A DNA stretch of 64,000 bases, taken from contig NZ_FOES01000002.1 of assembly GCF_900110685.1 (NCBI RefSeq), positions 1 to 64,000 on the forward strand, read 5' to 3'. Position 1 is the stretch's first letter, and every line of letters starts with the position of its first letter. Both the position numbers and the translations under genes were made by a program. The notes under the pieces are model-generated. The model worked only from the letters and a program-made list of their open reading frames with translations, made no database searches and was not told where the DNA came from. The stretch comes from Piscibacillus halophilus (GTDB lineage Bacteria; Bacillota; Bacilli; Bacillales; Alkalibacillaceae). This document shows positions 33,183 to 47,921 of the stretch, in pieces.

Positions 33183-33586
33183 GACCAGTAAGTGTCTCGT
33201 AAGCCATGTTCTGTACCTTCGTACTACAATCGGCGGTCAACCTCGTACTCCAGTCGTAACCATCTATCTGCAAGCTTATAACTTGCCTCTCTGCTAGGTT
33301 GAATTCCCTGCAGAAAGTGCCCCTACCATTTTTTGGGTTGCTCACTCGTGGGGTTTACCTCGTTCCACTTTGATTGTTTCCAATCAAAATCGTCACTGTG
33401 GCACTTTAAAGGTAATCCAATCATATCCATAGACTTAGATTGTTTCCCTGCCGTTAGCTAACCTTTAGTTAACTACCTTGACTTATGGTTTCGTCAAGCA
33501 CGAACACTACAAGCGTCTCAGCCTGTGTGAGCATGGACTTTCCTCTCTGCGAATCACAGAGCGGTTACATCAACACTTACAACCAT
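33183..33586 (-). ncRNA. rnpB: RNase P RNA, type B
   Basis: The catalytic RNA that matures tRNA 5' ends. On the minus strand it has the universal blocks AGAGGAAAGTCCATGCTC near the 5' end, AAAGTGCCACAGTGACGA in the middle and GTACAGAACATGGCTTAC at the 3' end, where ACAGA..TGGCTTA is the near-invariant P4 partner. Helix P1 closes the molecule: GTAAGTGT (33573-33580) with ACACTTAC (33187-33195 region). The middle sequence matches the Bacillus type B fold. It lies between gpsB and ypsC as in B. subtilis. Ends are approximate. It explains the otherwise gene-free stretch here. Confidence 0.95.
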
Positions 33587-42646: not shown

Positions 42647-43831
42647 TTATAATGAGTATTTTTCTACGAATCGTTTAATGCGTTTAGCAGCTTCTTCTAA
42701 CTGATCCAATGATGTTGCATATGATAAACGAACATTGTCTTCTGATCCAAATCCTGACCCTGGAACGATGGCCACTTTCTCTTCTTCTAACAATTGGGCA
42801 ACCCATTCATCAGTCGTATTAAATGGAGAAGCCTTTACGACTTCTTTTACATTCGGAAATAAATAGAATGCTCCATCTGGTTTCACACATGTAACATGAG
42901 GAATTTCAATAATCCAATTGTATAACTTATTTAAGCGCTCTTCAAAAGCTTTCTTCATCTTGTCAACTTCTTCTTCAGAATGCTCATATGCCGCAATGGC
43001 AGCATATTGTGCAATTGATGTCGGGTTTGAAGTAGCGTGGGATACTAGATTGGACATTGCTTTAATGACCTTCTCGTCCCCTGTAGCATATCCTATTCTC
43101 CAACCAGTCATGGAATGAGATTTACTTACACCATTAATAATAATGGTTTTTTCTTTTAGTTCCGGTGAAACAGAAGCAATGGAAACGTGATTCTCATTAC
43201 CGTAAATCAATTTTTCATAAATTTCATCCGACACAATCCATAAATCATGTTTAAGAGCGATTTCTCCCAATGCTTTAAGCTCTTCTACACTATATAACAC
43301 ACCTGTCGGGTTACTTGGTGAATTAAGGATGATTGCTTTAGTTTTAGGTGTGATCGCTTCTTCAAGCTGCTCAGGTGTTAATTTAAAATTATTCTTCTCT
43401 TGCGCTTTAACAAAAACAGGCTTCCCTTCCGAAAGCTTAATTTGTTCTGGGTAACTGACCCAATATGGAATTGGAACAATGACCTCATCGTCTTTATTAA
43501 GCAGCACTTGAAAAAGGGTATATAATGCGTGCTTTGCACCCGTGGTAACAATGATTTGATTACGAGTATAATCAAGCTCATTATCTCTTTTAAACTTATT
43601 AATGATGGCATCTTTTAATTCAACTAAACCGCCAGCTGGTGTATACTTTGTCTTTCCTTCATCCATTGCTTTTTTAGCAGCATTCAGAATATAATCTGGA
43701 GTGTTAAAATCTGGTTCTCCTGCTCCTAAACCAATCACATCATGTCCTTCTGCTTTTAATGCTTTAGCTTTAGATGTTATTGCTAATGTACTTGATGGTG
43801 TAAGAGCTTGGACTCTTTCTGCTAGTTTCAT
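42647..43831 (-). CDS. aspB: Aspartate aminotransferase
   Basis: A PLP enzyme interconverting aspartate/2-oxoglutarate and oxaloacetate/glutamate. Family I motifs: GAGEPDFNTP, the PLP-Asn in LNSPSNPTGVLYS, the Schiff-base Lys in INGVSKSHSMTGWRIGY (about 236) and the substrate Arg in NVRLSYATS. The 394-residue length is normal. GGAGGAG precedes the ATG. It is co-oriented with ypmB, 30 bases upstream, and with asnS. Confidence 0.96.
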   Translation of the reverse strand: MKLAERVQALTPSSTLAITSKAKALKAEGHDVIGLGAGEPDFNTPDYILNAAKKAMDEGKTKYTPAGGLVELKDAIINKFKRDNELDYTRNQIIVTTGAKHALYTLFQVLLNKDDEVIVPIPYWVSYPEQIKLSEGKPVFVKAQEKNNFKLTPEQLEEAITPKTKAIILNSPSNPTGVLYSVEELKALGEIALKHDLWIVSDEIYEKLIYGNENHVSIASVSPELKEKTIIINGVSKSHSMTGWRIGYATGDEKVIKAMSNLVSHATSNPTSIAQYAAIAAYEHSEEEVDKMKKAFEERLNKLYNWIIEIPHVTCVKPDGAFYLFPNVKEVVKASPFNTTDEWVAQLLEEEKVAIVPGSGFGSEDNVRLSYATSLDQLEEAAKRIKRFVEKYSL

Positions 43832-43861: not shown

Positions 43862-44365
43862 TTAAAAAGAAATAGAGTCATACAGTTCGCCATTGTCGAA
43901 TCGAAAAGTTTGAAAATATAACCTACCTTGACGTTCATAAATAATTTCCCAAACATAACGATTATTTAAAACCCCTAATTGGATGGAATCTAAATCACAT
44001 TCTTCACAATTTGATTCCCACTGTTCAAGCATTTCGTTCTCCGTCAGGCCTTCATCAGATTGAACATATTTAATTTCGGCATCTTCCTCTTCTTCACTAT
44101 TGATCTGAGGGACAAACACATAAAGAGTATTTCCTTCCTCGTCTTCCCCTGTTATTACTACATAAGATTGTCTTCCGTTAAATAATGAAGATGAAGTGAC
44201 GGAGTTAATAGGTGTCTCAGCGAATGCTTGTTCAATGGCTTCATCATAAACGGCGTTTTTATCATTTTGAACACCATTATAAATGACTGATAGTACCACA
44301 ATAAATATAATAACTCCTACTCCTAATAACAGCCCTGTTGTTAGTAGAACTTTACGCATTTTCAA
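43862..44365 (-). CDS. ypmB: YpmB-like membrane-anchored protein (DUF5590)
   Basis: About 167 residues: one N-terminal membrane anchor (TTGLLLGVGVIIFIVVLSVIY) and an extracytoplasmic domain with two short PepSY-like repeats (YVVITGEDEEGNTLYVFVPQ, VWEIIYERQGRLYFQTFRF). The start is set at TTG 44365, eight bases after AAAGGA; ATG 44374 touches that site, so it is less likely, though possible. Function is unknown; the place just before aspB matches B. subtilis. The outer domain is strongly acidic. Confidence 0.82.
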   Translation of the reverse strand: MKMRKVLLTTGLLLGVGVIIFIVVLSVIYNGVQNDKNAVYDEAIEQAFAETPINSVTSSSLFNGRQSYVVITGEDEEGNTLYVFVPQINSEEEEDAEIKYVQSDEGLTENEMLEQWESNCEECDLDSIQLGVLNNRYVWEIIYERQGRLYFQTFRFDNGELYDSISF

Positions 44366-44449
44366 TGTATTCATCCTTTTATTTAATCACTGCTATTATT
44401 ATAACAATTCAAAGCATTATTTTGTTAATCAAAAGTCAACTTCCACAAT

Positions 44450-45199
44450 TTATTCTCTTTTTAAGTAAAGTTCATAATCATCCTGCATAATCGTAATATG
44501 CGCTGAAACTCCACGCCTTAAGGCATAAATATCCACCCATTGCTTTTGAAATAATTCAATAAGTGATTCTAATTTATTATGTTGATTAATGATCGCGACT
44601 TCAGGATCAAGTTTAACTAAGTCCTCCTCAGACAATTGTTCAGCCTTTACATTATCAGGGAGAAATATAACCTGTGTATGCTTGTTCCATAAATCGTGAT
44701 TAATTGCACCTTCATACCAAAAACAAATAAAATCTCCATTCGAAATGGCCACATGACTACTTTCTTTTTCTGTATCATACACATGGTCAATATAATACTT
44801 TGAACTAATAGCAATTCGTTCGTTTCTTTCTAAAAGATAAGTTTGGTTACTAAAATCTTCTGGTATGGTACACACTTTTTCTTCACTTTTAGGAAGATAA
44901 ACATTATCAACTGAAAAATGCTTAAGAATCATGGATAGATTACCACAATTCTCATGATTGACACGAGTGATTAATATTCCTTTAATGTGCTTATCTTCTA
45001 AAGCCTTAATATATTCTAATACCTCACTTCGACTCTTCAAACTTCCAGTGTTAATGATAAAGACTTCATCTTCATTTAAATGCATAATAGCAAGGTTTCC
45101 AGACGACAGAGGTTCGAATACAATCTCTTCATCAGCTGTTACCGTTATATTAGAAATTAAACAAATGCTTAATAAAATTAACAATACTCGACCTTTCAA
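44450..45199 (-). CDS. Secreted metallo-beta-lactamase-like protein with degenerate metal site
   Basis: A 249-residue protein with a Sec signal (VLLILLSICLISNITVTA). Its core resembles the ComEC-type MBL domain: FIINTGSLKSRSEVLEYIKAL (normally LIDTG) and ILITRVNHENCGNLSMILKHF, where the HxHxDH metal motif would be. Here it reads RVNHENC, so most zinc ligands are gone, and later ligands are not evident either. It is therefore probably not a hydrolase. TTG 45199 is favoured: GGGTG lies 6 bases upstream. It occupies the slot between dinG and ypmB held by the small ypmA in B. subtilis. I do not recognise a described family. Confidence 0.6.
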   Translation of the reverse strand: MKGRVLLILLSICLISNITVTADEEIVFEPLSSGNLAIMHLNEDEVFIINTGSLKSRSEVLEYIKALEDKHIKGILITRVNHENCGNLSMILKHFSVDNVYLPKSEEKVCTIPEDFSNQTYLLERNERIAISSKYYIDHVYDTEKESSHVAISNGDFICFWYEGAINHDLWNKHTQVIFLPDNVKAEQLSEEDLVKLDPEVAIINQHNKLESLIELFQKQWVDIYALRRGVSAHITIMQDDYELYLKRE

Positions 45200-45233
45200 T
45201 ACCTTCACCCGCTTTTAATATAACTAACTATTA

Positions 45234-47921
45234 TCATTCGTCTTTATCAGCGTTATATGACAACCAGTTTTTTGCATCTGTTAGTAATTGATGTCTTCGA
45301 TCGTGTAACAAAGGTACTTCAGGTATGGCTTTTAAAAATTGTTTCCCATAATGTTTTGTCATTATTCGTTGATCTAATACAATAAATAAGCCTCGATCCT
45401 CTTCCGAGCGAATAAGTCTGCCAAAAGCTTGTCTAAATCGTAAAACGGCCTGTGGTAACATCCAATGATAAAAAGCATTTTTATTTTCTTCTTCTAACTG
45501 TTTGGATTTTGCTTGAAACATCGGATGATTAGGTGTATCGAATGGTAAACGTACCATAATAACTATTTTAACGGATTGACTATGGATATCAATTCCTTCC
45601 CAAAAGGAACTCGTTCCTAATAATATGGCTTTATCCGTTTTTTCAAACAACTTCTTTAATTTTTCACGACTTCCTGTTTGAACTCCCTGTGCCAAAATCG
45701 GTATTTTTTGTTGTCGGTCCATCACCTTTAACATTTTGTAAACCGATTTAAGCATTTCATATGACGTAAAAAGAACAATCGCTTTTTCTTCTAACTCTTC
45801 AATTAAAGTCATAACGAATGAAGCGACTTCTTCCTCGTACTCTAAGGTTGAAATCTGCTTAATATCTGGAAAATCATTAGGTACATATAATCGAACTTGA
45901 TGGTGATAATCATATGGAGATGGGAGATACAAACAATTAGTATTCTCGCTTAATCCTATCTCTTCCAAAAACGATTCAAAAGAATGATTCGTCCTTATGG
46001 TAGCACTCATCAATACAGTTGGTGCCTCATTATTAATGACATTTTGTTGAATAAACTCTTGTACATTAATCGGTTCTATATTTAATTGGACAGCATTTTT
46101 GGCTCCATCCTGATCAATATCAATCCACCGGGCATCTGTTTCACTGTATTTAAAAAATGATTTTAATGTAGTTTTGACATCTTCTAAATCATCTAATATT
46201 TTTTGTTTTGTTACCTTTTTCCAGTTATTGTAGTACGTGTTTTGTTTAACAATGGCTGTTACTTGTTCTAAATCTAATAGCACATCGTTTAATTGTTGTT
46301 TTAAATGTCCGGATAAAATGATATCCAAATGGTACTGATCTAAAGGTAATTGCACCTTACCAGTATCTGATAAAGCATCTTTCTCTGAATGTAAAAATAA
46401 TACTGCTTGATATATTGAACGAAAAAACTGATCAATAGAGTGTTTTAAACGTTCGACCGATGTGTGGTGCGTTAAGCTTTCAATGTTATTTAATACATGT
46501 GCAATTGATACATAATCAATTTGACGTCCTAATTGTTTTTGAACAACGTCTTGTAAACGATGAGCTTCATCAATAATTAAATAATCATATTCTGGTATTC
46601 GATTAGATCGATACACATGCTCTGTAATTAAAAATGCATGATTAACAATAATCACTGAAGCATTCCTAGCTTTAACCAAAGCGCGTTTAAAGTAAGAACT
46701 TTGCTCCTCATCTTCATTTGACATAACGCCTGAAATGTATGGCCAAATATCTTCACCTTTAGACGGTAATTGTATTTCATCTTTATCTCCTGTTTGAGTT
46801 TCAGTTAACCAAACTAAAATAATGGCTAAGCTTAATGCTGTATCATAATTATAATCATCAATTTCTTCTAAATAAAAACGTAATTTATTCAAATGTATAT
46901 AATGCATAGGACTTTTTAATACAGCAATCGATTGATTGGTATTGAGTAATGTTTCGACCTTCATCCAATCTCTACTTAATATTTGATGTTGTAATTGAAT
47001 GGTACTTGTACTAATTAACGTCTTCTTTTGGTGAGACTGTGCTTGGTACAATGCTACTAATAAATAACTAAGTGTCTTTCCAATTCCAGTTTCAGCCTCT
47101 ATAACGGCATGTCTTTTTTCTAAAAAAGATTGATTGATTTGATGAGACATTTTTATTTGGCTTTCTCTTAGCTTCAGCTGATCATCAGACCAATTTCCTA
47201 AAAATTCATTCAAACTCAAGGAAGTTAATCCAGGTATAGGGGTAACCGACTTATTCATTGAAGTTCTCACAGCAAATCCATTTTCAAATGTGATGCTGTA
47301 AGGGTCTCGTTTGTATCTTTTGTATTGAATGAGATCTTCAATGATTTGTTCAATGTCACCATTAAATACACGAGTTAAAGGTTGTAATTGATTTAAAGTT
47401 TCAAAAGGTAAATTTTCTAATTTATTAACGAGCTTGATGAATAATAAGCCTGTCACATAAGCATCTGATAAAGCCCTGTGAGGTGAATAATGTTCAATAT
47501 TTAAATAACTTGTTATATCTTCTAATTTGAAACTATCTGCTCTTGGATATAATACTCTAGATAACTCAACCGTATCAATAATCGGTAATTGCAATGGGTC
47601 ATATCGATGTTGCTCAAAAGCTTCATTTAAAAAATTGTAATCAAACTGAACTTGGTGAGCAACAAAATACACATCTTCAAAAAAAGGTAATATTTCCGGT
47701 ATAATCTCTTCAAATGTTGGAGCGTTTGACACATCCTCATCGGTAATTCCTGTTAACCTCGTGATAAAAGGCGGGATATCTTGTTTTGGCTTAACTTTGG
47801 TGGAATATTCTTGGATAATCTTTTGATTTTCAATGACAACTAATCCAATTTCTATGATTTCATCACCTTTTTTTACCGAATGCCCAGTTGTTTCTAAATC
47901 CACTACTACGTATCGATTCAA
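45234..47921 (-). CDS. dinG: DinG-type exonuclease-helicase
   Basis: An 895-residue fusion. The N-terminal DnaQ-like 3'-5' exonuclease (1-170) has DLETTGHSVKKGDEIIEIG and the later HRALSDAYVT motif. The superfamily 2 helicase of the XPD/DinG type follows, with Walker A ETGIGKTLSYL near 283, DEAH box IDEAHRLQD near 455, LMSATIRTNHSF and VLRFRQAFGRLIRSEEDRG at the end. The four iron-sulfur cysteines of E. coli DinG are absent, as in the Gram-positive type, which acts chiefly as a nuclease. Its role is presumed to be in DNA repair or R-loop removal. Confidence 0.94.
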   Translation of the reverse strand: MNRYVVVDLETTGHSVKKGDEIIEIGLVVIENQKIIQEYSTKVKPKQDIPPFITRLTGITDEDVSNAPTFEEIIPEILPFFEDVYFVAHQVQFDYNFLNEAFEQHRYDPLQLPIIDTVELSRVLYPRADSFKLEDITSYLNIEHYSPHRALSDAYVTGLLFIKLVNKLENLPFETLNQLQPLTRVFNGDIEQIIEDLIQYKRYKRDPYSITFENGFAVRTSMNKSVTPIPGLTSLSLNEFLGNWSDDQLKLRESQIKMSHQINQSFLEKRHAVIEAETGIGKTLSYLLVALYQAQSHQKKTLISTSTIQLQHQILSRDWMKVETLLNTNQSIAVLKSPMHYIHLNKLRFYLEEIDDYNYDTALSLAIILVWLTETQTGDKDEIQLPSKGEDIWPYISGVMSNEDEEQSSYFKRALVKARNASVIIVNHAFLITEHVYRSNRIPEYDYLIIDEAHRLQDVVQKQLGRQIDYVSIAHVLNNIESLTHHTSVERLKHSIDQFFRSIYQAVLFLHSEKDALSDTGKVQLPLDQYHLDIILSGHLKQQLNDVLLDLEQVTAIVKQNTYYNNWKKVTKQKILDDLEDVKTTLKSFFKYSETDARWIDIDQDGAKNAVQLNIEPINVQEFIQQNVINNEAPTVLMSATIRTNHSFESFLEEIGLSENTNCLYLPSPYDYHHQVRLYVPNDFPDIKQISTLEYEEEVASFVMTLIEELEEKAIVLFTSYEMLKSVYKMLKVMDRQQKIPILAQGVQTGSREKLKKLFEKTDKAILLGTSSFWEGIDIHSQSVKIVIMVRLPFDTPNHPMFQAKSKQLEEENKNAFYHWMLPQAVLRFRQAFGRLIRSEEDRGLFIVLDQRIMTKHYGKQFLKAIPEVPLLHDRRHQLLTDAKNWLSYNADKDE

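Follow-up and report, generated by a model that had tools for sequence, protein, structure and literature searches.

What might a protein do outside the cell if it has the fold of a metallo-beta-lactamase (MBL) and has lost the residues that bind the metal? The question is raised by a gene next to dinG in Piscibacillus halophilus. We examined it in a 64,000-nt window (the whole stretch analyzed, positions 1 to 64,000 of contig NZ_FOES01000002.1) and in related loci from the same order, Bacillales, and from other orders of the class Bacilli.

The gene and its setting

Between dinG and ypmB/tseB there is a single open frame (44450 to 45199, minus strand), which encodes an exported, degenerate ComEC-type MBL protein of 249 aa, here called X. 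The original prediction placed an ORF at this interval, and the minus strand is indeed open there, with a TTG start at 45199. This start has GGTGAAGG just before it, and GGTGA lies ahead of the equivalent start in L002, L003, L004, L010, and L011. Residues are numbered from the GTG at 45208 (252 aa), where the mechanically called ORF opens. The hydrophobic N-terminus ends in VTA|DEE and by eye is a putative type I signal peptide (45134 to 45199, minus strand; predicted from sequence to be cut after VTA, residue 25). A hydrophobic N-terminal segment recurs in all 107 X homologues, in keeping with the signal peptide that had been proposed, and a crude pattern picks out a lipobox-like sequence in 13 of them.

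The neighboring genes are also on the minus strand. The conserved upstream neighbor, the helicase/exonuclease gene dinG (45234 to 47921), ends 34 nt before X, and 75 nt separate X from the start of ypmB/tseB (43862 to 44374; TseB domain, PF17881). The conserved downstream neighbor (42647 to 43831), matched across loci, is presumably aspB, a name that we take from the gene order of Bacillus subtilis. A terminator-like site occurs upstream of dinG (47972 to 47954), and none was found in the window in the three gaps from dinG through X and tseB to aspB. The weak matches of this type that fall within dinG, X, and aspB are no evidence of function. Elsewhere in the window, the left edge carries a group II intron match (224 to 294; RF00029, 47.3 bits) and a class B RNase P RNA is located at 33195 to 33576.

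Fold and the former metal site

The window protein has nothing above a curated cut-off in Pfam or NCBIfam (best NCBIfam E 0.007), so the original prediction was right in knowing no named family for it; single X members gave weak Pfam matches, mostly to unrelated families. A family profile of 29 X homologues, searched against the PDB, matched the ComEC beta-lactamase-like domain over its full length (30bt, E 1.3e-16; 9ic4, E 1.6e-16). Pce/CbpE followed at E ~1e-9, and the first match that is clearly not an MBL was calmodulin at E 0.34. The structure model, built from a three-sequence alignment, is weak (mean pLDDT 60.6), although blocks over residues 41 to 140 average 76 to 89. Foldseek ranked RNase J first and 9ic4 second, and the 50 matches listed are all MBL-fold proteins by name. 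VIA-align placed ComEC 9ic4 at the top (Z 15.3, 198 residues aligned, rmsd 3.4), a tie (within 1) with Pce, PqsE, and RNase J at 14.4 to 14.9. Profile, Foldseek, and VIA-align thus agree on the MBL-like beginning that had been suspected, and the fold check did not refute it. X has the alpha-beta-beta-alpha arrangement of the MBL fold superfamily, with the C-terminal 45 residues of the model (208 to 252) below pLDDT 50.

Within this superfamily, X resembles the C-terminal domain of ComEC in fold, in full-length homology, in its extracellular side, and in the common landmark [ND]TG; outside the window clade LKV is also common to both. X differs in being a stand-alone exported protein of 249 to 252 aa with one N-terminal hydrophobic segment, and it does not have the OB fold and competence membrane (channel) domain that accompany the MBL domain in ComEC/Rec2, the full ligand set, or HHGS. 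The same genome has a separate full-length ComEC (L112, a 736-aa open frame). Pce/CbpE is similarly an extracellular MBL-fold protein, and compared with ComEC it is the more distant relative of X by profile and tied by fold (Z 14.9). Unlike X, it is described as a Zn-binding enzyme (PMC8579336). X has neither the Zn esterase site nor the choline-binding repeats of that group, its ligands being gone and its length too short for repeats. With PqsE, INTS9, and other MBL proteins X has the scaffold in common, a similarity of fold only, with no close sequence relation; INTS9 and part of PqsE function rest on protein contacts. X has no match to YpmA (DUF4264, PF14084). It does have the features that define its own family: a gene after dinG, an export segment, lost metal ligands, and the motif W-[IV]-[DE]-x-Y.

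Aligned with the ComEC of its own genome, the former metal motif II (44939 to 44968, minus strand) is TRVNHENCGN in place of THxDxDHxGG. Here ILITRVNHENCGNL of X aligns to IIISHYDTDHAGSL of ComEC, with the ligand changes H to R82, D to N84, D to E86, and H to N87; H85 of X is off any ligand position. In the same comparison ITRVNHENCGNL of X lies opposite ISHYDTDHAGSL of ComEC. At the site of the ComEC HHGS (motif V; 44645 to 44656, minus strand) X has DNVK, and the Asp of GD is lost. We scored seven ligand positions, namely four in motif II, the GD Asp (the least certain of the seven, in a part of the alignment with many gaps), and the two His of HHGS. The window protein has R, N, E, N, G, D, and N at these positions, which sets it apart from catalytic metallo-beta-lactamases. 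The change of THxHxDH to TRVNHENC, originally read as a loss of metal ligands, therefore stands, and the later ligands are gone too. For Moorella glycerini ComEC, H598, D600, D602, H603, and D700 are described as metal coordinating; mutation of H598, D602, H603, or D700 virtually abolishes nuclease activity, and D600A lowers it about five-fold (PMC12455585).

The loss is family-wide. Among 82 homologues from the order, 43 keep none of the seven ligands, 33 keep one, and 6 keep two. By position, 2 retain the first His and 21 the second ligand; the motif Asp survives in 10, the last His in 0, the GD Asp in 2, and the two His of HHGS in 7 and 3. In the 25 homologues from other orders the counts are 0 ligands in 7, 1 in 8, 2 in 5, 3 in 4, and 4 in 1; by position, the same series runs 0, 1, 6, 15, 10, 0, and 2. 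Each of 27 intact MBL/ComEC sequences has all seven; for motif II, by which the set was picked, this follows by construction, but GD and HHGS played no part in the choice. An alignment of 68 sequences from the whole collection gives the same ligand picture. The pattern is graded, with residual second-site residues mainly in deeper X lineages. Two proteins of one family, both in the dinG slot (L115 and L120, f35), have THxGExY at motif II, where the first His is there and the remaining site is gone; both fall inside the order's clade, and their His may have been regained or retained until late. No intact HxHxDH was found when the altered motif was checked across dinG-slot orthologues, those of the order keeping at most two of the seven ligands.

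X also has features of its own. The family motif (WVDIY here; 44525 to 44539, minus strand) includes Trp224, which has a weighted frequency of 0.97 in 81 X homologues; intact relatives have Gly at 0.49 in that column. Cys88 (44945 to 44947), adjoining the dead motif, has a likely partner in Cys113 (44870 to 44872; both minus strand). Among the 81 rows, 25 have both cysteines, one has Cys88 only (L101), none has Cys113 only, and 55 have neither. Because the 25 rows group together in the quick tree (branch support 74, or else the value printed next to it), the pair was probably gained once and kept through much divergence. A Cys88-Cys113 disulfide beside the dead loop is thus likely in the window's wider clade, judging from these residues. 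X proteins are for the most part acidic, with median net charges of -16, -11, and -12 in three groups versus -1.5 for intact relatives, although the ranges overlap widely (-32 to +11 for X, -58 to +31 for intact).

Neighborhood, distribution, and descent

A conserved gene position had been proposed for X, and the wider set of loci agrees: dinG is the upstream neighbor in 80 of 83 loci from the order and in 19 of 25 from other orders, the remaining 6 having no dinG match within the stretch. In a first set of 69 order genomes with X, dinG is directly before X with no probed gene between them in 68; dinG was not found at L036, and the matches at L100 and L111 are partial. tseB was found at 68 of these 69 loci. 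At L106, X, YpmA, and aspB are there and the locus has no TseB match. Weaker matches gave 30 further loci. Fourteen are X by neighborhood and do not have the motif; dinG accompanies X in 12 of these. The remaining 16 retain the motif, and their fetched flanks (≤1.5 kb) contain none of the four neighbors. A class-wide search, for which stronger matches only were taken, gave 36 loci, of which 10 retain the motif and 26 do not (25 from other orders, 1 from the order), dinG adjoining 20 of the latter. Left out were L006 and L031 (broken frames; L006 was counted for neighborhood only), L041 (a different MBL), L029 and L030 (from the genomes of L002 and L003), and L043-L072 and L143-L145 (repeat or shorter loci).

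The gene was originally assigned to the ypmA slot. Its place between dinG and ypmB stands, and the idea of a substitute for ypmA does not. YpmA is present in 54 of the 69 first-set loci and is missing in L001-L014 and L036. It was found in 0 of the 14 window-clade genomes searched (the window is without it between 43862 and 45234), in all three genomes searched from the rest of that family, and in 54 of 55 X-bearing order loci outside the window clade. X is thus an additional gene upstream of ypmA, which the window clade has lost. In many families a few hundred bp or another gene separates X from ypmA-tseB. In some families, as at L038 (5482 to 6870) and L040 (5333 to 6634), an amidohydrolase-like gene, by eye adenosine/methylthioadenosine deaminase-like, lies between X and ypmA.

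Motif-bearing paralogues occur elsewhere in the genome at 25 of 26 loci. The nearest intact relatives that we found, stand-alone exported ComEC-like MBLs of Bacilli (L124, L138, and L174), have the same domain and an export-type N-terminus; unlike X, they retain motif, GD, and HHGS, and a supported branch separates them from X. One motif-bearing locus (L178) has an aminotransferase match on the opposite strand. At another (L175, 4302 to 7350), an intact ComEC-like MBL (HAHADH) lies 37 nt downstream of a 663-aa DinG-family helicase that apparently has no exonuclease domain. We rejected this locus as a counter-example, as the helicase is a paralogue (24% identity over the matched part); the locus has no significant ypmA, tseB, or aspB match. 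It is possibly an independent or older pairing of a DinG-type helicase with a ComEC-like MBL.

X was detected in 36 of 61 order genomes (by profile at E 1e-44 or better, plus G060 by slot) and is absent by profile from 25, so the gene is dispensable; TseB was found in 57 of the 61. The slot was inspected in 20 of the 25 X-less genomes (G027, G055, G057, G076, and G079 were left out), and none of the 20 had an X-profile match even at E 10. In 18, dinG is followed by YpmA as the nearest probed gene; in the other two, dinG is outside the stretch. One of the 18 (L199) has 1.7 kb between dinG and YpmA with no X match. Across the class, matches at E 1e-25 or better came from 59 of 200 genomes, intact paralogues included.

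A tree of 98 rows places 81 X sequences on one side of a branch with 100/100 support, opposite 16 intact MBLs and ComEC. A quick tree of 134 rows likewise puts 107 X sequences on one side (SH-aLRT 98), with 82 from the order in one clade at 99; the truncated L126 was excluded from the trees. Rooted on the intact set, the tree has L173 and L165 branching first. The early branching of L165, with four of the seven ligands, fits stepwise ligand loss; the placement of L173 is unsure because its branch is long. In five close X pairs dN/dS is 0.04, 0.06, 0.09, 0.11, and 0.35 (two further pairs are saturated), which indicates purifying selection on X in the tested pairs. In a Piscibacillus salipiscarius draft (L031), dinG, X, and aspB are all in broken frames; since dinG and aspB are broken as well, an assembly or sequencing error is likely.

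Possible roles

We infer that binding without catalysis is the function that best fits the sequence evidence; the binding or sensing role originally suggested is likewise conjectural. X probably descends by vertical inheritance within Bacilli from a ComEC-type MBL phosphodiesterase and would now be an exported pseudo-enzyme with a binding or scaffolding role in the envelope. Metal-dependent hydrolysis would have been given up and the scaffold turned to binding, so that X may hold a ligand or a partner protein on the outside of the membrane. A candidate surface for such contact is formed by the W-[IV]-[DE]-x-Y segment together with the refilled pocket, and in the window clade the disulfide may stand in for the metal as a loop clamp. 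Given that TseB is the next exported product in the window's gene run, envelope assembly would be our guess at the space in which to look for partners. Deeper X lineages keep Asp and His residues that might still hold one metal.

A more ambitious version of this account seems rather unlikely to us. It would make X a class-wide exported pseudo-MBL family acting as a non-catalytic regulator of Bacilli envelope assembly, with stepwise loss of the site and a disulfide replacing the metal, possibly in a redox-responsive way. Most of the first metal site of an exported ComEC-like phosphodiesterase would have disappeared early, and the remaining second-site residues would then have been lost lineage by lineage.

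TseB is a cell-wall elongation regulator, and X could be its accessory, binding the outer PepSY domains of TseB or a penicillin-binding protein (PBP) and tuning cell-wall elongation. We regard this as unlikely, while giving it some weight. The gene order dinG-X-(ypmA)-tseB-aspB is conserved, both products are exported, and in the window no terminator-like site interrupts the 75 nt between them. PMC10653890 connects TseB and CopD, its homologue in pneumococcus, with PBPs, and PMC4406074 links TseB to cell division. The latter source also describes B. subtilis ypmA-ypmB-aspB as a three-gene operon, which counts against this reading, as do the spacing or extra gene between X and ypmA-tseB in many families and the wider occurrence of TseB (57 versus 36 of the 61 genomes). 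Mirror-tree analysis of the five locus genes in 45 genomes, run with no exported controls, gave a partial correlation of 0.38 for X-TseB. With the exported controls YycI, YycH, and DivIB (30 genomes), the value was 0.23, the same as for X-DivIB (0.23), and the specificity of a TseB partnership by this measure was gone. YycH and YycI are known partners, and this control pair reached 0.73 in the 30 genomes; X-dinG was 0.01. As X-TseB equals the value for the unlinked exported DivIB, we do not claim coevolution.

Given its homology to a DNA nuclease domain, X might instead be a nucleic-acid guide, an inactive ComEC nuclease with its binding of DNA outside the cell preserved; such a role has been suggested for the degenerate C-terminal domain of Streptococcus pneumoniae ComEC (PMC8579336). 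The counterpart of ComEC S728 remains Ser in 17 of 25 other-order and 24 of 82 order homologues, but the window protein has neither this Ser nor the Lys of ComEC LKV. The acidity of X, even with ranges that overlap those of intact relatives, weakens the reading further, and we consider it improbable. More improbable again is an enzyme with a rebuilt site, in which N, E, Y, D, or F would replace the His and Asp ligands, possibly with one metal in deeper lineages. Recurrent replacements (first His to Asn in 27 of 82, last His to Tyr in 44 of 82, HH to D/E then F/Y) and the ligands remaining in L165 (four of seven) and four others (three each) would suit such a site. The window protein does not have the common replacements (it has R, N, E, N, with D-N for HH), so the rebuilt site is not itself conserved.

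Decay to a pseudogene is largely refuted, and we give it next to no credence. Repeated loss (dinG then ypmA in 18 of 20 X-less slots) would be expected of a decaying gene, as would the fragmented X of the Piscibacillus draft, but there dinG and aspB are fragmented too. Frames are open in divergent lineages, the Trp and the Cys pair are conserved, and dN/dS is 0.04 to 0.35 in the five pairs. Since ligand loss and the position beside dinG are family-wide and the motif-bearing paralogues are separate, X is neither a pseudogene nor a local oddity; conserved position, ligand pattern, tree, dN/dS, and other-order homologues together rule this out.

Inactive MBL domains are already known, also within ComEC. 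The S. pneumoniae ComEC domain is described as having undergone a natural loss of MBL ligands like that of X, with His to Asn and Asp to Glu changes (PMC8579336, PMC12455585), but it stays inside ComEC, whereas X is a separate family adjoining dinG. A literature search, with most subscription journals outside its scope, found no paper on a stand-alone exported dinG-linked family. X is an old exported family that keeps its genomic position and has no curated model, and it places an unstudied exported gene near tseB. B. subtilis is not known to carry X, while many of its relatives have it. The traceable gradation from an active site held together by metal to a scaffold without it would make X a natural case of an MBL enzyme turning into a binding protein.
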